From contig NZ_JAHDAU010000004.1 in NCBI RefSeq assembly GCF_021991835.1, forward strand, positions 248,001 through 312,000: DNA of 64,000 nt. Reading direction: 5' to 3'. The position numbers were made by a program, and so were the translations under genes. This document shows positions 23,432 through 35,856 of the stretch, piece after piece (within the stretch, counting starts at the first letter, position 1; every line of letters begins with the position of its first letter). The notes under the pieces were generated by a model. It saw only the letters and a program-made list of their open reading frames with translations, did not search any database and was not told the origin of the DNA. Source of the DNA: Polaribacter sargassicola. GTDB lineage: Bacteria; Bacteroidota; Bacteroidia; Flavobacteriales; Flavobacteriaceae.

Positions 23432-23785
23432 TTATTGTTCAAATCTCCTTATTCTTAAAGACAGATCTTTTGGATCAAATGGTTTTGTTACAAAATCATC
23501 TACTCCTAAAGAAAAAGCTTCTAAAACAACATCTTCTGCACCTAGAGATGTAAGTATAATAATTTTTATTTGATCGTTATAATTATCCTTTATCCAGGCT
23601 ACAAGTTCTAAACCTGTTATAAAAGGCATCATAATATCTAAAATTACTAAGTCTGGAGTTTCCTTTTTAATTTTTTCTAAGGCATCACTTCCGTCTACAG
23701 CGAATACAACCTCATGGTTATCGCTAATACTTAAATTAAGTAGTTTTCTACTTAACTCACTATCGTCTGCTACTAATATTTTCAT
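23432..23785 (-). CDS. Single-domain response regulator (receiver only)
   Basis: 117 aa, a receiver domain and nothing else. The acid pocket is Asp7-Asp8, the phospho-acceptor is Asp50 (VILDIMMP), the switch Thr79 (ILTS) and the conserved Lys101 (VTKPF) are all present, so it should be phosphorylatable. With no output domain it must work through a partner, CheY/Spo0F style. It is divergent from the degenerate histidine kinase that heads the polymer-synthase operon (24209 onward), sharing a 423-nt spacer, so I infer it belongs to that locus's control. Convergent with the DUF457-type gene, 9 nt apart. Confidence 0.9.
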   Translation of the reverse strand: MKILVADDSELSRKLLNLSISDNHEVVFAVDGSDALEKIKKETPDLVILDIMMPFITGLELVAWIKDNYNDQIKIIILTSLGAEDVVLEAFSLGVDDFVTKPFDPKDLSLRIRRFEQ

Positions 23786-24208
23786 ACTAAAGTTTTTAAA
23801 TTATTTATGTAAATGTATATAAAAAAATATTATTTTTTTGAGAGGTAAACTTCACCTCTTTCTCTTTTGTTTTTTTAAGCTATTTTATAGGTAAAAAGTC
23901 TCTTATTAATAAAACAACTTTAACTATAAACTAATATTTACATAAAATAAATATTTAATATTCAATATATTAACCTAAAACACAAATATTTTAACCTCTA
24001 TATTTTTCAAAAGAAATAGAAAAGAAGTTAACTGCAAATAAACCTTACAAAAAAGCAATTCATCTTTATTTTTTGGCATTCAAACCCTTTTTTTTTCTTA
24101 CCTTTTACAATGATTTTAACTTTAGAAAAAATGTAAATTATAGTATCATTTAAGATTGATTTTAAGTGTATTTAATTTTAGAAAATTAACATTTATAAAT
24201 TTTAAATT
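23786..24208. promoter_or_regulatory. 423-nt divergent promoter region of the polymer-synthase locus
   Basis: No gene seen. A TTTTTTGG at about 24069-24076 and TACCTTTT at 24099-24106 make a possible promoter for the plus-strand operon, although the spacing (about 23 nt) is a little long for the Bacteroidota consensus. A small hairpin (agaggt 23841-23846 with acctct 23854-23859) followed by a T-rich run lies in the leader of the response regulator gene. Very AT-rich throughout. Confidence 0.35.
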
Positions 24209-25522
24209 TTGGAAAAAAAACTGCTAAAAGAAAAACAATTACAAAAAGAACTCTGGAAAATTAGCGACACAATTTTTTGGAGTTTAAATTCTGTAATTTT
24301 ATTTACTATTATTTTAGATCTTATAATACTAAGTAAAAATTGGTTAGATTTTGTGCTGCTTAAATTATTTCTGTTTATTTTCTTTTACGCAGCTTACAAC
24401 TTTTTTAAGAAAACACGAGGCGCAACACCTTACCTTTTAATACATCTAATTTTATTTAGTTTTAATTTTTTAACCTTAATCTCTATTTCTCATTCTGGCA
24501 CCGTAAATACAATTGTATACACTACTGTACTTATTGTTTCGTTTGTAACTTTTAATCTAATTATTGTATGGCCTATAATTAATAGTTTTATACAATATCT
24601 TTTAGTTGTAGTGGTCTTTTCTTTGTTAGTGCTACTAGAAATTATAAACGATCCTTATCAAGTTTTAAAAGAAGGAGGTTACCTGTTTTTATCTTTAGGT
24701 TTTATAAGTTTTTTCTTACCAAAAATTAAAGAAAATGTATTAATAGAAAGAATTGAAGTAGCTTTAAAAGCAGATGAAAAGATTAACTTTTTACAAAAAG
24801 AATTATCAGAAACACAAACTAAATACAACTTATTAGAGCAAAAAGTACTGAAAAAAGAAAACGAATCTAAGTTTATGTTTCAGCAAATTAGTAATGATTT
24901 AAATAAAGTTAACGATGTTATTTCTACCGTTAATGATAATACTTCACAAGAAAGAAAGAAAAAGATAGAAGACATTAGTGACTTGATTGATAATTTAAGA
25001 AACCAAAGCTCTGTATACTTTAAACCTGTTAATTTAAATACAAATAACAAAAATTACGCTACAGACACCGTAGATGTTAAAAAAGTATATTTAGACGTAT
25101 TTAAATCTTTTACAAACAAAATTGCAGAAAAAAATATTACCGGTACAGATAAATTAATAGACACTAACCCGTTAATAATTGGTAACGAAAGAATGTTTAA
25201 AACTATAATTTATAATATTTTAAACTTTATGGTAATTTTTTCTAAAGAGAATGATGAAATTATAGTTACCATAGACAACCTTAAAAACGATACTATTTTT
25301 AGTGTTACAAATAAAACAACCGGTATAAACTCTACTGAAATAGAATCTTACTTTAGAGATTTAGAGTTTGTAAATTATGATTATCAAAAGCACAGCGATA
25401 GTGTAAAAATAGGATTAAGAATATCTAAACAATTAACACAAAAAATGAACGGATATTTTAGTTATGTCTCTTCTGAAAGTATGGGATTTGAACTTAAAAT
25501 ACAATTTGAAACATATAAATAA
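24209..25522 (+). CDS. Histidine-kinase-like membrane protein, degenerate
   Basis: 437 aa from a TTG start: an in-frame stop lies two codons upstream and no ATG is near. Five or six hydrophobic helices (about 22-170) precede a coiled coil (180-260) and a C-terminal GHKL-like region (285-437). The usual H-box is not found: the equivalent helix reads KFMFQQISNDL (221-231), with no His. The N-box is weak (TIIYNILNFMVIF, 332-344), the DxGxG box is replaced by TNKTTGINS, and only a late GLRISKQLTQKMNG (402-415) resembles the G2 region. It probably senses or scaffolds rather than autophosphorylates. First gene of the operon, 6 nt before the BcsB-like gene and divergent from a lone receiver protein. 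Confidence 0.72.
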   Translation: MEKKLLKEKQLQKELWKISDTIFWSLNSVILFTIILDLIILSKNWLDFVLLKLFLFIFFYAAYNFFKKTRGATPYLLIHLILFSFNFLTLISISHSGTVNTIVYTTVLIVSFVTFNLIIVWPIINSFIQYLLVVVVFSLLVLLEIINDPYQVLKEGGYLFLSLGFISFFLPKIKENVLIERIEVALKADEKINFLQKELSETQTKYNLLEQKVLKKENESKFMFQQISNDLNKVNDVISTVNDNTSQERKKKIEDISDLIDNLRNQSSVYFKPVNLNTNNKNYATDTVDVKKVYLDVFKSFTNKIAEKNITGTDKLIDTNPLIIGNERMFKTIIYNILNFMVIFSKENDEIIVTIDNLKNDTIFSVTNKTTGINSTEIESYFRDLEFVNYDYQKHSDSVKIGLRISKQLTQKMNGYFSYVSSESMGFELKIQFETYK

Positions 25523-25528
25523 AGCTAA

Positions 25529-27586
25529 ATGATTATGAAAAAATATTATTTTATTGTACTAACAATTTTGTTAGGAATCCATGTACAAAGTTTCGGTCAA
25601 GTAGTAGAGCATTTTAATGAATATGATTATAGTGAAGAAATCACCATTAATGGAGCTCAAGGAATGGAAGAAATTTATATTCCTGTTAAAGAAAATATTG
25701 ATATTCTAAACAGCTATATAAACTTAGAATTTATTTGCTCTAATGTTTTAGATTTTGATAAAAGCCATATGTCTGTATTAATAGCAGATACACCTATAGA
25801 AACTAGATTTCTTAAAAATCAAGATCAGATTATTAGCTTTAAAATACCTGTTAAGAAAAAGTATATTGTTTCTGATTTTATAAAAATTACTTTACAAACT
25901 AACTTAAGAATTGGAAGTGAAATATGTGAAGCCGATTCTAAAAGTGGTTTTTGGATTAAGTTAACTGAAAACTCTTTTTTCTCTTATAATTTACTTCCAT
26001 CAGAAGAAAAAATTGTTAAAAAAACAATTAGCTATACAATACCAGATATTAAGTATATCGTTTTATCTGATAATAGTGAAATTAAAGATATAGAATATGC
26101 ATCTTATATTAAGTTCTACTTAAAAAGAGTTTATGGTTTAGATACTAAGATTAAAAACATTAAAGATTATAAAAATAGCGTAATTGAAGATGCTATAATT
26201 ATAATGCCATATGACAAATTAAGTGAAAGAATTACAACAAAAACACCTACAATAGAAAAAGAAAATGTAGGTTTAGTCTCTGTTTTTAACGATCAATATA
26301 AAGACTCTACAAGCTTAAAAACATACAATGGACAAAATATTGTTGTAACAGGTAAAAGCGAAACTGGTTTTAGTAAAGCTGCTCATTACTTACTACAAAA
26401 ACACCTTATAAATTCTTCTTATGTAGATTATGTTTTTGTGCATGAAGAAGCAAAGTTATTAGACATTCCACAAAGAAAAGATTACGAACCAATTTACTTT
26501 AAAGAATTAGGCGCACAAAATAATATTTTACAAGGATTAGGTTACTTACAATCAAATGTTGCCTTACCTAGATCTAAATTTGGATCTAACGTAAAAAAAA
26601 TGGATGTTAATATAGAAGGTAAATACAGACCTTTATCAGACAATGAACAAGGTTATTTTAATCTTTATTTTAATGATATCTTTTTAACATCATACAAATT
26701 AGATAATACAGGTGATTTAAATATCAGTTTTAGTTTTGATGACATTATTATGCAACAAAACAATAACTTTAAATATGAATTTTATTTTGTTCCTGAAGGT
26801 GGAATGTGTGACACAGCAGGAGCAACATTTTACGGTCAAATAGATGCTGTTAATTCTTATTTTAAACCTGTAGGATACGATGTTTCTTCTTCGCTTTCTT
26901 TCTTTAGATTTCCAGAAAACTTTCAATCTAAACCTTTAACTATTTATACTGATTTAGATCCTGAACAAAAATTAATAAGCAGCATTTCTGAATTAATTGA
27001 TATAATTAATCCAGGAGAAACTGGTTTATCTGGGTTTATTTATCCTAAAATTAAAAACGCTACACTAAAAGAAATTGAAGCAGATTTAGAAACTTCTAAA
27101 ATTATTATTAGTAAAGAAAGTGAAAAATTTTCTACCTTTTTTGCTGAATCTGCTTATATAAAGTTTAAAAACAATGTGGTAGAATATGATTCTGAAGAAA
27201 TTAAACCTTTCTTTAATGTAGAATACGAAAAAGAGTTAGGATACAACCAACTTTTTTACCACAACAGTTCTCCTGTAATGCTGGTAAACGTACCTCAAGA
27301 ATACAATGCAAATACATTACTATCTTTAATTTCTAACATTAGAGAACAAACAATTGCAGATACAGGTAATGTAATTATAGCAGATAACAATAATGCTTAT
27401 TTCTTTGATTTAAGAATTATTAATGACAATCATGATAAAAACTATTTAAATTCTCTTTTAGACGGATTTTGGGGTAAATACAGAATTTTCATCGTTTCTA
27501 TTTTATTAATTTTAGGAATATTAGTTTTAATATTTATTTTCCAAAAATCTAAAGAATCTAAAGCAAAAATTCAAGATGAAAAATAA
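25529..27586 (+). CDS. BcsB-like cellulose-synthase regulatory-subunit homologue
   Basis: 685 aa. An alternative ATG at 25535 gives the same signal peptide (ending QSFGQ). The mature protein is periplasmic with one C-terminal membrane helix (about 650-670: YRIFIVSILLILGILVLIFIF), the topology of BcsB. BcsB-type pattern: paired jelly-roll halves, each with a two-part strand pattern (NSYINLEFICSNVLDFDKSHMSVLIADTPI early, NLYFNDIFLTSYKLDNTGDLNISFSF later), a Cys in SEICEADSKSGFWI in the first half and one in EGGMCDTAGATFYGQID in the second. It would guide a nascent polysaccharide across the periplasm, attached to the glycosyltransferase encoded two genes downstream. Similarity is by pattern only; the polymer may not be cellulose. 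Confidence 0.72.
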   Translation: MIMKKYYFIVLTILLGIHVQSFGQVVEHFNEYDYSEEITINGAQGMEEIYIPVKENIDILNSYINLEFICSNVLDFDKSHMSVLIADTPIETRFLKNQDQIISFKIPVKKKYIVSDFIKITLQTNLRIGSEICEADSKSGFWIKLTENSFFSYNLLPSEEKIVKKTISYTIPDIKYIVLSDNSEIKDIEYASYIKFYLKRVYGLDTKIKNIKDYKNSVIEDAIIIMPYDKLSERITTKTPTIEKENVGLVSVFNDQYKDSTSLKTYNGQNIVVTGKSETGFSKAAHYLLQKHLINSSYVDYVFVHEEAKLLDIPQRKDYEPIYFKELGAQNNILQGLGYLQSNVALPRSKFGSNVKKMDVNIEGKYRPLSDNEQGYFNLYFNDIFLTSYKLDNTGDLNISFSFDDIIMQQNNNFKYEFYFVPEGGMCDTAGATFYGQIDAVNSYFKPVGYDVSSSLSFFRFPENFQSKPLTIYTDLDPEQKLISSISELIDIINPGETGLSGFIYPKIKNATLKEIEADLETSKIIISKESEKFSTFFAESAYIKFKNNVVEYDSEEIKPFFNVEYEKELGYNQLFYHNSSPVMLVNVPQEYNANTLLSLISNIREQTIADTGNVIIADNNNAYFFDLRIINDNHDKNYLNSLLDGFWGKYRIFIVSILLILGILVLIFIFQKSKESKAKIQDEK

Positions 27587-28400
27587 GATTCTTTTACTTC
27601 TTTTGTTTCTACAAACCATCTGTAATTATGGGCAAAACCCTTGGCTACAATCCAAAGGAGATGTATTATTTTCTCCATCTATAACTCATTATTATACAGA
27701 TACAAAAAGAGATGAAAACAGTATCAAATCCGATTTTGATAACAATGGATATTATAAAAACAATGTGTATAAAATCTATTTTGCAACCTCATTAATCGGT
27801 AATAAGTTAGATCTTATTGGTAATATACCTTACGTAGAAAGTACATATTCTGATGATTTTAATTTTAATGAGAATAATGAATTTGGTGATGTAGAATTAG
27901 GTCTTAAAATGCATTTAAAAAAAGTTGGCGAATTTCATTACCTAATGGGATCTTTAACTTCTATAATACCAATGTATAGTAATGATGCAGAACCATTTGT
28001 GGGTTTTGGCAAATTTGGTACAGAATTAAAAATTAATATTTCTGGAAATTCTAAATGGATGGGAGTTAATGATAATTTTCATCAATTAGAATTTGGTGTT
28101 AAGCAATTTTTTGGTGGTCCTACTCAATTTAAACTATACGGCTCTCAAGGATACAGATTTACAAAAAAGTTTCTTGCTTTAGCAGATATAGATATTTTTC
28201 TCTCTAGAGGAGATAATTTTACTGTTTCTCAAGAAAATGTACAAATTACACCCGACTTTGATATTGTTAAAACAACTCTTAGTCTTGGTTATGAATTCTC
28301 ACCAAGTTTTGCTCTGTACGCAGGTGGTTTTAGCGATTTATGGAATAGAAATGTATCTATTGGTAAAGGTTGGCAAATATTTACGGTAATAAAATTATAA
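27576..28400 (+). CDS. Predicted outer-membrane beta-barrel protein of the polymer locus
   Basis: 274 aa. A signal peptide (1-19, ending CNYGQ) is followed by alternating amphipathic strands with aromatic ends (YKIYFATSLIGNKLDLIGNIPYV, DVELGLKMHLKK, LEFGVKQFFGG, TTLSLGYEFSPSFALYAGGFSDLW) and a terminal strand ending in a hydrophobic residue (FTVIKL), typical of outer-membrane barrels. It overlaps the BcsB-like gene by 11 nt, so the two are translationally coupled. It is much shorter than BcsC and has no TPR region. I infer that it is the outer-membrane exit or an accessory barrel of the polymer system. The family is not recognised with confidence. Confidence 0.65.
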   Translation: MKNKILLLLLFLQTICNYGQNPWLQSKGDVLFSPSITHYYTDTKRDENSIKSDFDNNGYYKNNVYKIYFATSLIGNKLDLIGNIPYVESTYSDDFNFNENNEFGDVELGLKMHLKKVGEFHYLMGSLTSIIPMYSNDAEPFVGFGKFGTELKINISGNSKWMGVNDNFHQLEFGVKQFFGGPTQFKLYGSQGYRFTKKFLALADIDIFLSRGDNFTVSQENVQITPDFDIVKTTLSLGYEFSPSFALYAGGFSDLWNRNVSIGKGWQIFTVIKL

Positions 28401-28406
28401 ATATCT

Positions 28407-30257
28407 ATGGCTAATTTTAATATAAACATTCATAGAAAAGAACTTTTTATAGAAAGCAAATTGCTTACTCATAAACAAGTATCTAAAATTGAAAGAATTA
28501 AAATTGGTCTAAATAAATCTTTTTTAAAGACAGCTTTAAACCATGGTTTTATTTCTAGATATCATTATAACAAAGTTATAGAAGATTTAAATTTACCCAC
28601 TCTTAACATAAATTGTGATGAAATTGAAAACTATAAATCTTTTTCTGACACTCACGAAAGATTTAATTTATTTTTAAACACTTTAATATTTCCAATAGAA
28701 CATAATAATAAAGTTGCTTTTGTTGTTGCCGATCCTTCAGATATAAATAACATAAGACTTGTTGAAGAGGAGTTAAAGGTTAAAGTTTCTGAAATTTTTG
28801 TTACTAATGAGCTAGATTTAAACAAAGCTTTGCACTTAAGATATGGTGATAAAATTTTACATAAATCTGTGTTTCATCTATATGAAAGTGATGCAGATAG
28901 TTGTGCTATAGAAACTTTTACACTAAAACAAGTAATTGCATTAGGTATCCTTTTTTTTATATTTTTAATAAGCTTATATTTTAATTTTGTTAATACTTTA
29001 ATTGGAGCAAACCTTTTATTAAATTTCTTCTTATTATTTTCTATTCTTTTTAAATTTATGCTTACTATACATGGCTCTAGAACAGAGCTAGAAAGTAAAG
29101 TAAGTAAAGAAGAAATCGATTTAATTAACGATAAAGATCTACCTATATACACAATACATTTACCTGTATTTAAAGAATCAGAAGTAATTCAAAAATTAGT
29201 TTGGAACTTAAATAACTTAGATTATCCAATAGAAAAATTAGATGCAAAATTGTTAATTGAATCTGATGATGCAATGACATATAATGCTATCAGAGAAATG
29301 AAATTTCCTACTAATTTTGAGCCAATAATAGTGCCATATGCACAACCAAAAACAAAACCTAAAGCCTGTAATTATGGTTTGTATTTTTCTAAAGGAAAAT
29401 ATTTAACTATTTATGATGCAGAAGATATACCAGATAGTGATCAATTAAAACAAACTTATAAGCTTTTTAATAAATTACCAGACGATTATATTGCCATACA
29501 ATGTGCTCTAAATTATTTTAATAAAAGTGAAAACTTTTTAACAAAAATGTTTACACTAGAGTATTCTTATTGGTTTGATTATATGCTACCTGGTTTAGAC
29601 AGCCTTAGAATACCTATTCCTCTTGGTGGTACAAGTAATCATTTTAAATTTGATAAACTAATGGAACTTGGTGGTTGGGATGGTTTTAATGTTACAGAAG
29701 ATGCAGATTTAGGTTTACGTTGTTATGCAAAAGATTACAAAATTACCGTATTAGATTCTACTACTTACGAAGAAGCTAATAACGATTTTTTTAATTGGAT
29801 TAGACAACGTTCTAGATGGATAAAAGGATACATGCAAACCTATTTGGTACATATGAGAAATCCTCTTAAATTATATAAATCAATTGGTGCTAGAGGATTC
29901 TTTGGTTTTCAGTTTTTTATTGGTGGTACTGTTTTTACTTTTTTAAGTTACCCTATTCTATTGTTATTTTTATTAATATACTTCTGTTTTAAAAGTAAAT
30001 GGATAGAATTGCTTTTTCCTGATTGGTTAATTATTATTTCTTTAATCAATTTTACATTAGGAAACTTAATAATGATTTACACAAATATGATTGCTATTTT
30101 TAAAAGAAGGTCATATTCTTTAATAATATACGCCTTAGCCAATCCAATTTATTGGTTAATGCATTCCATTTCTGCATACAAAGGATTAAATCAATTAATA
30201 ACCAAACCTTTTTATTGGGAAAAAACCAACCATGGTTTAACCAAGAAAAAGAATTAA
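28407..30257 (+). CDS. BcsA-like family 2 processive glycosyltransferase with N-terminal MshEN-like region
   Basis: 616 aa. The GT2 catalytic site is intact: ESDD (285-288), DAED (337-340, the DxD position), TED (430-432) and QRSRW (467-471), the Q-x-x-R-W signature of processive polymer synthases such as cellulose and hyaluronan synthases. Two helices (about 172-222) precede the catalytic domain and three or more follow (about 495-600). The N-terminal 160 residues (around LNKSFLKTALNHGFISRYHYNKV) resemble the MshEN/GspE-N domain seen in NfrB and in type II secretion ATPases. The C-terminal PilZ domain of BcsA is absent. Polymer unknown. Confidence 0.82.
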   Translation: MANFNINIHRKELFIESKLLTHKQVSKIERIKIGLNKSFLKTALNHGFISRYHYNKVIEDLNLPTLNINCDEIENYKSFSDTHERFNLFLNTLIFPIEHNNKVAFVVADPSDINNIRLVEEELKVKVSEIFVTNELDLNKALHLRYGDKILHKSVFHLYESDADSCAIETFTLKQVIALGILFFIFLISLYFNFVNTLIGANLLLNFFLLFSILFKFMLTIHGSRTELESKVSKEEIDLINDKDLPIYTIHLPVFKESEVIQKLVWNLNNLDYPIEKLDAKLLIESDDAMTYNAIREMKFPTNFEPIIVPYAQPKTKPKACNYGLYFSKGKYLTIYDAEDIPDSDQLKQTYKLFNKLPDDYIAIQCALNYFNKSENFLTKMFTLEYSYWFDYMLPGLDSLRIPIPLGGTSNHFKFDKLMELGGWDGFNVTEDADLGLRCYAKDYKITVLDSTTYEEANNDFFNWIRQRSRWIKGYMQTYLVHMRNPLKLYKSIGARGFFGFQFFIGGTVFTFLSYPILLLFLLIYFCFKSKWIELLFPDWLIIISLINFTLGNLIMIYTNMIAIFKRRSYSLIIYALANPIYWLMHSISAYKGLNQLITKPFYWEKTNHGLTKKKN

Positions 30258-30267
30258 AACAAAAGGT

Positions 30268-31848
30268 ATGGCTAATATTAAAGCAAAAAGCTCTTTACTA
30301 GTATTTTTTATCATTTGGTTTATTTACATTGCTTTTTTTAGTTTTGTAACCATGCTAATTCGTATGGATGGGTACATAAATTTTGAACCTTTATTTATTA
30401 CCAGCCATATTAATACTCTTTTTGATAGTGGAGAGTTAGTTAAAAACTTTTTTCTATCATACCCATTATTAACCAACTCATTAGCATATCCTTTTTCTAT
30501 ATTTAGTGCAGAAGATGCTCCTTTTTTTGCATCAGTATTTTATACTTCTTTATTTGCTACTTTTGTTGTAACTGTTGTTGGTAAAGAAAAAAGTAATACA
30601 CTTAAAGGATTCGTTTTTTTATATTTTCTAGTTAGCCCAATTACTATTTATACAGCAACTTCTGGTACATCTGTATATGCTTTTTATATTTTATATTTTT
30701 TTATTTTTTACTATCTTTTTAATTACATAAAAAACTTTACAACTTATCATATTGCTATATTAAGTATTATTTTAAGCTTAGCTACTTTTTTAGATTATAG
30801 AATTTTATGGCTCTTACCAATTCTATTTTTTTATGTATTTATCTTTAGTTTATATGGTATGAAAGGTTTAAAATCTTCTAATATTATTATTAAATATATT
30901 AAAACAACACAACACCATTCATTAAGACGAAAGTTTAGAGGTCGTTTAGGTTCTATGATATTTATTATCGGTTTTTTCCCTGTTACAAGTCTACTTTTAT
31001 ACTTTATTATAAATTATTTAATGGGTAATGATTTCTTTTACTTCTACGATTCTTTAGATACTAAATGGAATGGAAATAGCATTTTTAGTTTATTAGAAAT
31101 AAATACAATTACAAGCTTAGACAATAGAGCAGTAAACAACTTTTCGTTTTTTAATATTGTTTTATTTATATCACCTATATTTATTTTTGAAATAATAAGA
31201 CATTATAAGAAACCTTTAAATATTATTATTTTATCATTAGTACCTTTATTACTGTATACCTTATTAAGAGACAGTAATACTAATTTTATGAACTTGTCTT
31301 ACTATGTTATTATTATAGCTGCCGCCATTGCTTCTATTGCTGCTGCAACAAGTAATAATTTAAAGTTTAAAAAAGTAAGCTATTTAATTTATGCTTGTTT
31401 ATTTTCTATTAATATTTATGGTGAATATCAATATTTAAAAAAATCTTCTTTTACTTCAGAACAAATTTATTTTAATAGTGTAATTAACAAAGAACAGAAC
31501 ACTACTTTATTAGAGTACAAAGAAGGAGGAAGATATTTAGCTGCTAACACACCAGAAAATGCTATTGTTTTGTGCGATAGGTCTATTATGTATCCTTTAG
31601 TTGCTTACAATAAAGATAATAACTTCTTTATATCTAACTCTTCTACAGAGTTTAAAAATGCTATTTATAATCCTACCGAAAATTGTGATTATATTATTCT
31701 TTCTAATGCAGAATCTCCTTTTTATTATTATGATAAAGTAGAAGCTAATTTTAATAATATAGAAAAAAACGGATTGAGTGTTAATGATTATAGAACTAAA
31801 GTTATTTATTTTTCTAATACTTTTAGAATCCTTAAAGTAATCAAATAA
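30268..31848 (+). CDS. Polytopic membrane protein, possibly GT-C-type, in the polymer operon
   Basis: 526 aa with about ten hydrophobic helices up to about residue 395 and a soluble C-terminal part (about 400-526). The first loop holds RMDGYINFEPLFITSH, with an acidic pair that could be a GT-C-type catalytic site, but no established motif is recognisable. The protein starts 10 nt after the glycosyltransferase stop codon. It could be a lipid-linked-sugar glycosyltransferase, a flippase-like helper or a modifying enzyme. I do not recognise a family. The gene ends at base 31848, immediately adjacent to the stop codon of the GH5 gene on the other strand. Confidence 0.55.
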   Translation: MANIKAKSSLLVFFIIWFIYIAFFSFVTMLIRMDGYINFEPLFITSHINTLFDSGELVKNFFLSYPLLTNSLAYPFSIFSAEDAPFFASVFYTSLFATFVVTVVGKEKSNTLKGFVFLYFLVSPITIYTATSGTSVYAFYILYFFIFYYLFNYIKNFTTYHIAILSIILSLATFLDYRILWLLPILFFYVFIFSLYGMKGLKSSNIIIKYIKTTQHHSLRRKFRGRLGSMIFIIGFFPVTSLLLYFIINYLMGNDFFYFYDSLDTKWNGNSIFSLLEINTITSLDNRAVNNFSFFNIVLFISPIFIFEIIRHYKKPLNIIILSLVPLLLYTLLRDSNTNFMNLSYYVIIIAAAIASIAAATSNNLKFKKVSYLIYACLFSINIYGEYQYLKKSSFTSEQIYFNSVINKEQNTTLLEYKEGGRYLAANTPENAIVLCDRSIMYPLVAYNKDNNFFISNSSTEFKNAIYNPTENCDYIILSNAESPFYYYDKVEANFNNIEKNGLSVNDYRTKVIYFSNTFRILKVIK

Positions 31849-32862
31849 TTACAAGCAATCTATAATTTTATCAGAATTAGAAATTCCAAAATTACCTTTG
31901 TATTCCCATAAGTAAGATTTAATATTATGTTCTTTAAAAACCTCTATCAAATCTTTAAAGTATTTACATCTATAGTTTTCATCAATTGTATTAATTGCAC
32001 CAAATTCTGTACACCATAATTCTACATTATGCTCTTTAGCCCACTTAGAAATAATATCAATTTTATGACTTAAAGACGTTTTATTAGCCATGTCTTTATA
32101 GTCTTTGTAATTAACTTCACCTTCTGTACCTATTGCTTTTACATCTATTTTAGGCATTTTAATAGAATCATACGGATAAGGAATTTTTTCTGTTTTAGTT
32201 TGATTTCCTATCCAATTTGCACCTTGATGTGTAAAAATAAACGGTTCATAAAAATGAAATGTATAAACAATGTTTTTATAAGGAAATGGCTTTTTTCTAG
32301 AAAGCTCGTAAATACTATTATAATTAGTTGCTCCTATAAGTATTTTAGTTTCCTTATCTTTTTTTCTTATTTCCGGAACAATTTCTTGTACCATTTCATC
32401 CCATTTATTGGGATATAAATTAGGTTCGTTTAAAATTTCATAGAAGATAAAATTAGAATACTTTCTTAATTTACGGCTAACATATACCCAGTTTTTCTTA
32501 ATCGTTTCAATATTTGTAAACGCTGTTTCTTTCTCTAAAGTATGATCAAAATAACAAATTATTAAGGTCATATCTTTACTTTTAATATATTTTACAATCT
32601 TTACTAAATCTCTTAAAAAACTACCTTTAGATTTTTTTTTAAATTGATATTCAAAAGCAATTGGTAATCTAATGTCTTTAATTCCTTTATCATACAACTT
32701 ATCAATATCTGCAATTATCTCTTTATAATTTAATGGTTCTTGCTCCCAAAATCTTTCATAACCCGTTAAATTTATACCAACATTAAGAGTACTTTGTTGA
32801 GCTTTTACAATAGTATTGACTGATAAAAGAAGCATAATACAAACGGTTTTTGAAAAACACAT
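31849..32862 (-). CDS. Secreted glycoside hydrolase family 5-like protein
   Basis: 337 aa with a signal peptide (1-21, ending VKAQ). TIM-barrel glycosidase with the GH5 signature: the acid/base Glu146 in FYEILNEPNLY, His203 and Tyr205 in TFHFYEPF, and the nucleophile Glu286 in WCTEFGAI. GH5 enzymes cut beta-1,4 glucans or mannans. Stop codon and neighbour are tail to tail with no gap, like the bcs-linked endoglucanase BcsZ, so it plausibly trims or releases the polymer made by the adjacent operon. Substrate unproven. Confidence 0.85.
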   Translation of the reverse strand: MCFSKTVCIMLLLSVNTIVKAQQSTLNVGINLTGYERFWEQEPLNYKEIIADIDKLYDKGIKDIRLPIAFEYQFKKKSKGSFLRDLVKIVKYIKSKDMTLIICYFDHTLEKETAFTNIETIKKNWVYVSRKLRKYSNFIFYEILNEPNLYPNKWDEMVQEIVPEIRKKDKETKILIGATNYNSIYELSRKKPFPYKNIVYTFHFYEPFIFTHQGANWIGNQTKTEKIPYPYDSIKMPKIDVKAIGTEGEVNYKDYKDMANKTSLSHKIDIISKWAKEHNVELWCTEFGAINTIDENYRCKYFKDLIEVFKEHNIKSYLWEYKGNFGISNSDKIIDCL

Positions 32863-33682: not shown

Positions 33683-35746
33683 TTAATCCAACAACGCTGC
33701 ATTATCAAGAATTAATTCTATTTTCTTAATAATTACAGTTATCTGACTCATTTGAGCTTCTATATTTCTAAAATAAATACTTATATCTCTATTTACCCAA
33801 CTTTCAGAAATAACACGTGCTCCTAAACTAATTCTTAAAACAGCACTTTGCAAATCGTTTCTATATTTTACATTAACTGCTTGACCAATATGACATTTTT
33901 GAGCAGCAAGTCTGATAATTTCTAACGAAGCACCTTCAAATTGTTCTGATAAATCTGAATTTAACAATAAATAAAGTTTTTTTACTTTATCTACAGTTAA
34001 TGCATCTCCGTTTTTAATGATAAAGAAAGGGAAAATAGTTCTAATATTTCTTATTCCGAATTCCTCATTATCATAAGGGTTTTCTTGAAATTCGTTTACA
34101 TGAAGAGGTTCTAAAAAAGAAGCTTCGTTTATAGAGTCTTCTACAAAATTACAGAACATTTCAATTCCCATATTTCTGTATAAAATAGGTGTTAAAAAGT
34201 ACTTTTCCATTTCTACAATGGCAGCTTTCCAACGCATATTAGAACCATAATTAAAACCATCACATAAATCTGTAGCACAAGACCAATTTGATGGCCAATC
34301 TGATCGATTATAGTAATCTGTTAAACCTTTTGGTAATTTTTCTGTGACAGCACTTATAGATTGACTAACTCCTTTAGGAAAAATTAATGCTCCTGAATAA
34401 GGAGGACCTGTAAAATATTTACTACCTGTAATACTAACAATATATTCTTTTTCTAAATAATTTTGAATATCTACAGGATCTAATCTAAGTTGTGCGGCAT
34501 CTATAATTACTTGTATAGACAGTCCTTTTAACGTATCTAAATCTTGCATCATTTTTTCACTAGGAGATTGATATCCTAATTTAGAATGATCCATTATATG
34601 CAATACAACGTGTTTTCCTAATTTATTAGTTTCAGAAATAGCTGTAAAAACTTCATTATCTAATTGATTTGTAGATTTTAATTGACCGTTTTCATCTCTA
34701 AAAGGAATTTTAATCAAATCTACATCTTTAAACCCTTCTATTCTATCTCCTTTTTTAGCAGGACAATTAAGTGCTGTATTGTTTTCAAAATGACATCCTT
34801 TTAAAGCTGCTGGCACACCACTACCCGTTTCATCAGAGGCAACCAATACATGTGTAATTTCTTTATTAGTTACAATTTGAGTTAATGCTGCTATTTGAAG
34901 AGATGAATCTGTACCAGAAGGAGAAAAAATAATTTCGCAAGCTTCATCTAACGTAAATATTTTTCTTAAACTATTTTTTAAAGATTCAGAAAATTCTAAT
35001 GCTGTATTTTTAAATCCTTTTTTTAAGCTATTTTTAATTAAAATGCTTCTTGCTTTATCCGTTTTATCAAAAGCAAAATTAGAAACACTTGTTGCAGTAG
35101 ATGATGCAAATGTAAATGCTTCTGGTCTAGGAAACGGTCTACAACCATATTTATTTAATAAGTAAACCTCATCAATTGTTAATCTAAGATCTCCTCCATC
35201 CATTAATAAATACTCTGTTGGTTTTGCTAAATTTTTAACAATAGGTTCCCAAGCTTTTTCAAAAACATTTGTTTCTGTACTTATTCCATGAAAAGTTTCT
35301 AATTCTTCATAATTAGACGAATTATTATCCGTAGGATTTTTAATTAAGTCTATTAAAGAAAAGTTTACATTTTCTAACTTTTCTTTATCTTCTTTAGGTA
35401 ATAATTTATAAAAAATCTTGGTTACTTCTAACGCAGAAATATCACACAAATAAGTAGCTTTTTCATTATTATTTAAAGCCTTAAACCAAAGTTGCCACTC
35501 TATACCATATCTTAAATATACTAAAGCTAGAACAGGGTTTCTTAAATATAAAGAACCTATTATAATAGATTTATTTGGTTCTATTTTAAAAACATTAGGT
35601 ACCGTATTAGAAGTAATAATATTTATATTGTTTAATTTAGGTACTGTGTTAAATCTTTTTAAAACATGTACTAAATAATTAACATTTTCTTTTTCAAATA
35701 AACTTGTTCTTTTGTATTGATTTTCAATAGGAATATTATTTGTCAT
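33683..35746 (-). CDS. PLP-dependent (class V-like) enzyme with an unassigned N-terminal domain
   Basis: 687 aa from the ATG at 35746 on the minus strand. A TTG nine codons upstream (35773) is in frame but unnecessary. Residues about 210-560 look like a fold-type I PLP enzyme: FSPSGTDSS (275-282), IIDAAQ with Asp416 (PLP N1 contact) and the Schiff-base Lys443 in SITGSKYFTGPPYSGAL. The N-terminal 200 residues have no recognised domain and include a hydrophobic stretch YLRNPVLALVYLRYG. The order fits none of the enzymes I know by name; cysteine-desulfurase, kynureninase and serine-glyoxylate types differ in the region after the lysine. Just upstream (110 nt) is a DUF134 gene on the same strand. 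Reaction unknown. Confidence 0.7.
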   Translation of the reverse strand: MTNNIPIENQYKRTSLFEKENVNYLVHVLKRFNTVPKLNNINIITSNTVPNVFKIEPNKSIIIGSLYLRNPVLALVYLRYGIEWQLWFKALNNNEKATYLCDISALEVTKIFYKLLPKEDKEKLENVNFSLIDLIKNPTDNNSSNYEELETFHGISTETNVFEKAWEPIVKNLAKPTEYLLMDGGDLRLTIDEVYLLNKYGCRPFPRPEAFTFASSTATSVSNFAFDKTDKARSILIKNSLKKGFKNTALEFSESLKNSLRKIFTLDEACEIIFSPSGTDSSLQIAALTQIVTNKEITHVLVASDETGSGVPAALKGCHFENNTALNCPAKKGDRIEGFKDVDLIKIPFRDENGQLKSTNQLDNEVFTAISETNKLGKHVVLHIMDHSKLGYQSPSEKMMQDLDTLKGLSIQVIIDAAQLRLDPVDIQNYLEKEYIVSITGSKYFTGPPYSGALIFPKGVSQSISAVTEKLPKGLTDYYNRSDWPSNWSCATDLCDGFNYGSNMRWKAAIVEMEKYFLTPILYRNMGIEMFCNFVEDSINEASFLEPLHVNEFQENPYDNEEFGIRNIRTIFPFFIIKNGDALTVDKVKKLYLLLNSDLSEQFEGASLEIIRLAAQKCHIGQAVNVKYRNDLQSAVLRISLGARVISESWVNRDISIYFRNIEAQMSQITVIIKKIELILDNAALLD

Positions 35747-35856
35747 AAGTACTTTAATTTTAATCGTTTGCAACGATACTTACTTTTTTAATTCGGTTAA
35801 AACCTTTTATTTTTTAATTATTTTTAAACTTTGGTAATAGATGTAACTCTTAAAAA

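Follow-up and report, generated by a model that had tools for sequence, protein, structure and literature searches.

Synthase-dependent polymers are commonly switched on by the second messenger cyclic di-GMP (c-di-GMP). Among the described systems, the closest to the locus reported here are the sfz/sfb clusters of iron oxidisers that form twisted stalks (Zetaproteobacteria and Ferriphaselus). These comprise a BcsB-like protein, a family 2 glycosyltransferase (GT2) with a T2SSE_N domain and TED/QxxRW motifs, an unknown protein of about 500 amino acids (aa) and a hydrolase of about 330 aa, and they were likened to xagBCD (PMC8250860, PMC4643136). The Sfz4 hydrolase was predicted as GH10. A link of sfz/sfb to c-di-GMP was proposed from motifs and was untested in that paper (PMC8250860). 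In Xanthomonas, which carries XagABCD, the increase in biofilm of an rpfG mutant depended on xagA and xagB (PMC3609779). For NfrB of Escherichia coli control by c-di-GMP was shown experimentally (PMC8669469). In the MshEN domain, c-di-GMP is bound by two 24-residue motifs (PMC5013675). The present locus is a set of seven open reading frames (ORFs) at positions 23432-32862 of a 64,000-nucleotide stretch of Polaribacter sargassicola (contig NZ_JAHDAU010000004.1, positions 248,001 to 312,000), which as a whole is called the window. With modest confidence, the locus is read as encoding an exopolysaccharide synthase that is no longer coupled to c-di-GMP and is probably controlled by a kinase/receiver pair of its own. 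The basis is in silico and consists of gene content, two folds, conserved gene order, loss of a binding motif and scarcity of GGDEF genes.

The window GT2 matched GT2 families in Pfam at E values down to 4.3e-21. An earlier reading of the letters alone (the original prediction) had named DxD, TED and QxxRW motifs in it. TED (residues 430-432) and QxxRW (467-471) were invariant in 24 aligned homologues, while a strict DxD was not present, the acidic motif being D-A-E-D (337-340), as it is in NfrB. Searches of the PDB showed BcsA proteins as the closest solved enzymes, via the GT2 domain (E 8e-15). An MshEN-type domain, which the original prediction had named only as a query for a profile search, was found at GT2 residues 1-150. 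Taken singly, the window GT2 gave a weak Pfam match to MshEN, below the cut-off (E 0.012); across the aligned GT2 set the domain was matched in 24/24 proteins at E values no higher than 0.1, the lowest being 9.4e-14, and the family profile matched the N-domain of PilB in the PDB (E 5.1e-6).

The c-di-GMP-binding pattern of MshEN, RLGxx(LVI)(LVI)xxG(LVI)(LVI)xxxxLxxxLxxQ, occurs twice, and 7 key residues were scored per motif. The GT2 scan kept the best 80 of 321 relatives, whose record titles name Bacteroidota. The scored set comprised the window and 79 loci, after removal of L001-L006, which are duplicates or pieces of the window, and of L082, whose GT2 is shorter than 600 aa. The window GT2 retained 0 + 1 of the 7 + 7 key residues, and the 80 full-length Bacteroidota GT2s, including that of the window, retained 0-3 in motif I and 1-3 in motif II, in contrast to 6 + 6 in a Geobacillus GT2 and 5 + 4 in a Hyphomicrobiales GT2 (motif I of Geobacillus scores 5 in another alignment, owing to a gap at position 1; 6 was used). 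The Arg-Leu-Gly triad was present in neither motif half of any of the 80 proteins: Arg1 and Gly3 were found in 0/80 in both motifs and Leu2 in 1 (motif I) and 0 (motif II), while Gln24 was kept in 3/80 (motif I) and 1/80 (motif II). A Ser-Arg pair at positions 13-14 of motif II was present in 80/80, which hints at a function retained by the MshEN-type domain. Five deeper Bacteroidota branches retained 1-3 + 2-3 key residues. Judged by these counts, the c-di-GMP site of the domain is lost in the Bacteroidota family.

The genome pointed in the same direction. The absence of PilZ that the original prediction had claimed was borne out, with no Pfam match in the window GT2 and no profile match anywhere in the window's own 3.7 Mb genome, and the check for GGDEF that it had proposed likewise gave no match anywhere in that genome (controls: of 14 known genomes, 5 matched PilZ and 8 matched GGDEF). 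Among the host genomes of the relatives, GGDEF was matched in 2/26 of a first set and 1/31 of a second set, of which G144, G153 and G228 repeat genomes of the first; the genomes of 54/80 loci (26 + 28) were tested in all. The two matches that were read comprised a typical GGDEF and a degenerate GGDEF-EAL, the latter one of the two in the first set. The degenerate GGDEF-EAL gene (L092, G303:C6:4500-8000) comes from a Cytophagaceae metagenome-assembled genome, where it sits on a GC-rich contig of 12.7 kb, and is possibly contamination. In a phylum sample, GGDEF was found in 0/11 cluster-bearing genomes versus 203/395 genomes (Fisher p 3e-4, ancestry uncorrected); G689 of this sample repeats L050, and four other Mucilaginibacter-type genomes may also repeat loci. 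Control without c-di-GMP is well supported, and with no PilZ or GGDEF in the genome and a conserved gene order, the claim of a polymer synthase/export locus regulated unlike BcsA was upheld.

Gene order was conserved in relatives, as the synteny check suggested beforehand required. The nearest named loci among the best 80 of 321 were those of Algibacter pacificus and Wenyingzhuangia, both Flavobacteriaceae. The order kinase-BcsB-(barrel)-GT2-GT-C on one strand recurred among the kept loci across Bacteroidota, and because order and orientation recur in many relatives, the locus is more than a chance arrangement. Full-length members, including those of the window, numbered 74 for the kinase, 74 for BcsB, 80 for GT2, 79 for GT-C, 57 for the family 5 glycoside hydrolase (GH5) and 20 for the barrel, many loci being cut by contig ends. 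The GH5 gene was found in 49/52 loci with enough flank, namely in the window group (5/5), the Leeuwenhoekiella/Salegentibacter group (5/5), Cyclobacteriaceae (6/6) and the Sphingobacteriales-type group (33/36). The host genome of the window is a 3.70 Mb draft, 99.94% complete, in which a single BcsB gene was found. The GT2 was matched at E <= 1e-120 in 11/395 genomes of the phylum sample and BcsB at E <= 1e-5 in 4/299 genomes of the window's family, the window's genome included in each case, and three genomes of the window's genus in the phylum sample did not carry the GT2. By these sequence matches, the cluster is widespread but patchy in Bacteroidota. Some features of single loci were also recorded. 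The bcsB of Wenyingzhuangia marina (L009:5121-7178, L004) is split by one in-frame stop, either a sequencing error or a broken gene. Several Mucilaginibacter contigs (among them those of L025, L029, L030, L034 and L043) end about 0.2-1 kb past the GT-C gene, where an adjoining repeat, e.g. an rRNA operon, is conceivable. A protein of about 325 aa, which by eye resembles an acyl-ACP (acyl carrier protein) desaturase, is conserved beside the Mucilaginibacter GH5 gene (e.g. L027:2202-3179, minus strand; L036:2251-3231, minus strand; L109:11315-12295, plus strand).

The kinase-like protein of the window has five N-terminal hydrophobic segments and no Pfam match to HisKA. It had been called degenerate, and this was confirmed, since Gln225 takes the place of the phospho-His and there is no His in its vicinity. 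The phospho-His was kept in 72/78 aligned kinase homologues, so the degeneracy is a peculiarity of the window's clade; the six kinases lacking it belong to the window, Algibacter pacificus, three Wenyingzhuangia and one Pedobacter, and Gln stands at this column in the window, L007, L008 and L009. A kinase homologue was present in 77/79 loci that include BcsB and 1.6 kb before it. By eye, the window receiver carries the acidic pair, phospho-Asp and Lys expected of such a domain. In L007 and L009 a receiver likewise lies next to the operon, 69% and 67% identical to that of the window, respectively. A stand-alone receiver within the gene set or up to 1.2 kb away was found in 14/86 loci: 3/5 in the window group, 4/5 in the Leeuwenhoekiella/Salegentibacter group, 3/3 in the Spirosoma group and 4/5 in the deep branches, at positions relative to the operon that vary among groups. 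Receiver density was 14 in 847 kb (663 kb of operon and 184 kb of near flank) versus 2 in 463 kb of outer flank, where both receivers were signalling genes downstream of the same operons; the counts (14 + 2) were the same with a profile from six other receivers. No output or DNA-binding domain was found in the five receivers scanned with Pfam, which makes a protein target likely, and the MshEN-type domain would be a candidate for it. Direct phosphorelay control of the synthase is plausible.

The seven ORFs of the original prediction were all present at the place it gave, with Pfam confirming the receiver, HATPase, BcsB, GT2 and GH5 (Table 1).

Table 1. Features of the synthase locus, in positions of the window.
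Feature	Position	Strand	Evidence
Stand-alone receiver (REC), 117 aa	23432..23785	-	Pfam Response_reg E 2.9e-27
Divergent intergenic region between receiver and kinase genes, promoters presumed from reading of the sequence	23786..24208		
Membrane histidine-kinase homologue, 437 aa, pseudokinase	24209..25522	+	HATPase_c E 7.7e-9
BcsB-like periplasmic co-polymerase	25529..27586	+	PF03170 E 2.2e-22
12-stranded outer-membrane barrel, 274 aa, candidate export channel	27576..28400	+	AlphaFold2 model
Processive-type GT2 synthase, 616 aa, N-terminal MshEN-type domain	28407..30257	+	PF13632/PF13641
MshEN-type domain of GT2, residues ~1-150, eroded c-di-GMP motif, S50-R51	28407..28856	+	Family profile and motif counts
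GT-C fold polytopic protein, probable glycosyltransferase, 526 aa	30268..31848	+	AlphaFold2 and fold comparison
GH5 glycoside hydrolase, 337 aa, N-terminal signal-like segment	31849..32862	-	PF00150 E 2.9e-33

The BcsB-like identity was corroborated by a Pfam score of 79.6 against a cut-off of 21, and the protein has hydrophobic segments at residues 8-26 (N-terminal) and 653-671 (C-terminal membrane helix). The barrel gene sits between the BcsB and GT2 genes. Its product and the polytopic protein gave no NCBIfam, no PHROGs and no useful PDB sequence-profile match, and Pfam gave no useful family for 20 barrel members (one unrelated family in 1/20) or for 26 polytopic-protein members; the identities of both came from fold comparison. 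The 274-aa protein was modelled as a 12-stranded barrel (AlphaFold2 pLDDT 87.3, pTM 0.80) resembling 4rl8 of COG4313 (Z 24.0, root mean square deviation (rmsd) 2.4 Å over 235 residues) and FapF (Z 23.4, rmsd 2.3 over 228 residues). It had been described as a barrel without tetratricopeptide repeats (TPRs), and profile searches indeed matched no TPR in it; the model has the shape of a COG4313/FapF channel rather than that of a truncated BcsC. On this model, it is a candidate polymer export channel. In 6/6 Mucilaginibacter-type or related genomes, the barrel match was either separated from the GT2 by more than 30 kb or located on a different stretch.

The 526-aa protein was modelled with a GT-C fold (pLDDT 84.0, pTM 0.87), closest to Pmt4 (Z 16.0, rmsd 5.0 over 350 residues) and ArnT (Z 15.7, rmsd 4.9 over 400 residues), followed by oligosaccharyltransferases (Z 9.7-15). 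GT-C glycosyltransferases have a catalytic acidic residue in their first periplasmic loop; E40 of the polytopic protein, a candidate for this role, was invariant in 26 members. Its family profile matched a Geobacillus protein annotated GT39 (E 3.5e-9), and from the model it is probably a GT-C glycosyltransferase. The GH5 product had FnCel5A as best PDB match (E 4.8e-27) and is endoglucanase-like; by eye it has both the catalytic NEP and the second Glu. The stop of its gene abuts that of the polytopic protein gene, so the tail-to-tail arrangement was as described. A 696-aa protein encoded beyond it at 33683-35773 on the minus strand resembles a pyridoxal phosphate-dependent enzyme by eye and had no Pfam match at E 0.1.

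Two relatives were found outside Bacteroidota. Plasmid pEF60063-1 of Geobacillus stearothermophilus (CP128455, L087) carries BcsB-GT2-GT39 behind a ManC-like gene, with a GT2 46% identical over 614 columns and no match to the barrel or the kinase in the 19 kb examined. This plasmid was typed as conjugative, and recombinase and transposase genes flank the cluster on both sides; the setting raises the possibility of plasmid-borne spread of this kind of synthase among Gram-positives. A Hyphomicrobiales plasmid carries GH113, a BcsB-like gene, a GT2 (41% identical over about 600 residues) and a polytopic protein. GH113 is a mannanase family, and together with the ManC-like gene it favours GDP-mannose as the donor. 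Relatives of GH5 enzymes like FnCel5A have dual mannanase activity; the window GH5 itself is closest to endoglucanases, FnCel5A first. Literature on mannan synthesis in bacteria was searched with no specific result. The polymer may be a beta-linked mannan/glucomannan or a glucan.

From these parts a working scheme can be drawn, in which we infer the direction of transport, the role of each enzyme and the contact of the receiver with the MshEN-type domain. At the inner membrane, the GT2 would polymerise an activated hexose and feed the growing chain through BcsB, while the GT-C enzyme, using a polyprenyl-phosphate sugar, would decorate or modify it in the periplasm. The 12-stranded barrel would then pass the polymer across the outer membrane, and the GH5 may trim or release it. 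With an MshEN-type domain that would no longer bind c-di-GMP in the Bacteroidota family, the linked membrane kinase and the stand-alone receiver would govern the synthase, most simply through contact of the receiver with that domain. In its most specific form, in which the phosphorylated receiver acts directly on the former c-di-GMP receptor domain and export runs through the barrel, the scheme is put forward tentatively and seems rather doubtful.

Several observations weigh against synthase control by the kinase/receiver pair or against parts of the picture around it. The data hold no evidence of a contact between receiver and synthase. Ordinary phosphotransfer from the window kinase is impossible, as it lacks the phospho-His, and a kinase homologue was missing in L107 (the other locus without one, L082, is a 4.9 kb contig). 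A near receiver was found in 0/62 Sphingobacteriales-type loci (36 with both 1.2 kb flanks) and in 0/6 Cyclobacteriaceae loci, which weighs against receiver control. None of the five deep branches retains the Ser-Arg pair, and the contrast between eroded and kept motifs rests on two non-Bacteroidota homologues only, of which the Hyphomicrobiales motif is imperfect. Hosts G322 and G732 have GGDEF yet their motif is eroded alike, and the GGDEF contrast is confounded by ancestry, because only 2 genomes of the same class had GGDEF. The Pfam match of the Geobacillus GT2 to MshEN (E 0.019) and that of the Hyphomicrobiales protein to BcsB (E 0.012) were both below cut-off, and the Hyphomicrobiales polytopic match was weak (E 4e-4). 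The GH5 gene was absent from all three Spirosoma-group loci and all five deep loci and missing from 3/36 Sphingobacteriales-type loci, and a majority of loci come from one genus, Mucilaginibacter. The barrel gene stands outside the operon in Mucilaginibacter-type loci and L104, and weak barrel matches (E 7e-9, 2e-8) occurred in 2/3 same-genus genomes without the cluster; with matches in cluster-free genomes too, the link of a distant barrel to the cluster is suggestive only.

The 68/68 Sphingobacteriales-type and Cyclobacteriaceae loci without a near receiver, 42 of them with both flanks, favour a synthase that is transcriptionally controlled or constitutive, its MshEN-type domain being a structural or dimerisation relic and the kinase and receiver regulating something else or expression only; the pseudokinase of the window clade and the absence of the Ser-Arg signature from deep branches agree with it. 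Such an arrangement is considered rather unlikely, as the MshEN domain was found in all 24 members scanned and Ser-Arg in 80/80, a kinase homologue accompanies bcsB in nearly every locus with room for it, and the five receivers scanned with Pfam lack a DNA-binding domain. Since the domain is kept and a conserved Ser-Arg replaces the c-di-GMP residues, it might instead bind a different small ligand (c-di-AMP, cyclic GMP-AMP (cGAMP) or another nucleotide) and still be a second-messenger switch. The MshEN of V. cholerae binds cGAMP more weakly, and according to the same source MshEN does not bind c-di-AMP (PMC5013675). As cGAMP presumably needs residues lost here, and as no cyclase was found among the Pfam-scanned locus genes (the genome was searched for GGDEF cyclases only), another ligand is judged improbable. 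An ordinary cellulose-type (Bcs) operon with divergent parts, to which the BcsB match, the BcsA-like GT2 domain and the endoglucanase-like GH5 would fit, is very improbable and membership was rejected, given no PilZ, no TPR protein, a GH5 that is not of BcsZ type, an extra GT-C protein, an MshEN N-domain and a TIGR03030 CelA score of 52.5 versus a cut-off of 699.1.

Control of the synthase by its kinase and receiver, independent of c-di-GMP, thus stays the favoured reading. The phosphorelay-like control in the original prediction stood in part: the kinase in 77/79 loci and the receivers in three groups and 4/5 deep branches agree with it, while the 62 + 6 loci without a near receiver do not, and the direct link would be a further step. 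Findings named beforehand as counting against that prediction were another identity for the BcsB-like protein, a PilZ or GGDEF module controlling the locus and an order not conserved in relatives; none appeared in the tests run, in which the BcsB-like protein was judged by its Pfam match. The family offers a natural case in which a receptor-type domain is kept while its ligand residues are gone and cyclases are gone in most hosts tested, so that the rewiring of a biofilm synthase to another signal can be studied. If the phosphorylated receiver does act directly on the MshEN-type domain, the family would be a class of exopolysaccharide synthases in which a second-messenger switch has been converted into a two-component one that works on the enzyme directly. 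From the models, the third protein of an xag/sfz-like cluster would gain a GT-C fold, and the 12-stranded barrel is offered as a candidate polysaccharide export channel. Should the twisted-stalk clusters of iron bacteria prove to be real relatives, both points would matter for them as well.

Compared with known systems, the locus shares GT2 and BcsB with Bcs, which differs by PilZ control and by BcsC/BcsZ, BcsZ being a GH8 enzyme. The clostridial Ccs system shares GT2 and GH5, and has PilZ and a CcsB that is non-homologous to BcsB (PMC7710045). The barrel shares its 12 strands with the COG4313 channels and FapF (Z 22-24) at only 10-12% identity, and the cargo of the known members is a hydrophobic compound taken up or an amyloid protein secreted rather than a polysaccharide (PMC4493636, PMC5557850). 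NfrB has in common the fusion of GT2 and MshEN and a role as exopolysaccharide synthase (PMC8669469), and differs in a C-terminal MshEN with 7/7 motif residues in one half and 4/7 in the other and in a TPR outer-membrane partner, NfrA. Orthology to NfrB was rejected, with 23% local identity in the GT domain, swapped domain order, a lost motif and no TPR. The Geobacillus cluster shares BcsB-GT2-GT39 and differs by its Gram-positive host, the ManC-like gene and the c-di-GMP motif of 6 + 6. A literature search that left out most subscription journals found no Bacteroidota version of the cluster, including in the accessible text of PMC7112194 and PMC12074574. Bcs, the reference chosen in the original prediction, gave way to a nearer one, the xag/sfz type with its MshEN-GT2, BcsB, protein of about 500 aa and hydrolase. 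With caution, the cluster can be called a Bacteroidota variant of the xag/sfz kind, likened by published gene content, as no XagB or Sfz2 record turned up among the sequence collections searched. It differs from xag/sfz/sfb by its in-operon membrane kinase and its 12-stranded barrel, by the loss of the c-di-GMP motif, by the modelled GT-C fold of the protein of about 500 aa, and by a hydrolase that is a GH5 on the opposite strand, in contrast to the GH10 prediction for Sfz4, and is missing in 8/8 Spirosoma-group and deep loci. It shares with them the GT2 with an N-terminal T2SSE_N/MshEN domain, the BcsB gene before the GT2 gene, and the proteins of about 500 and 330 aa, which in the window have 526 and 337 aa.

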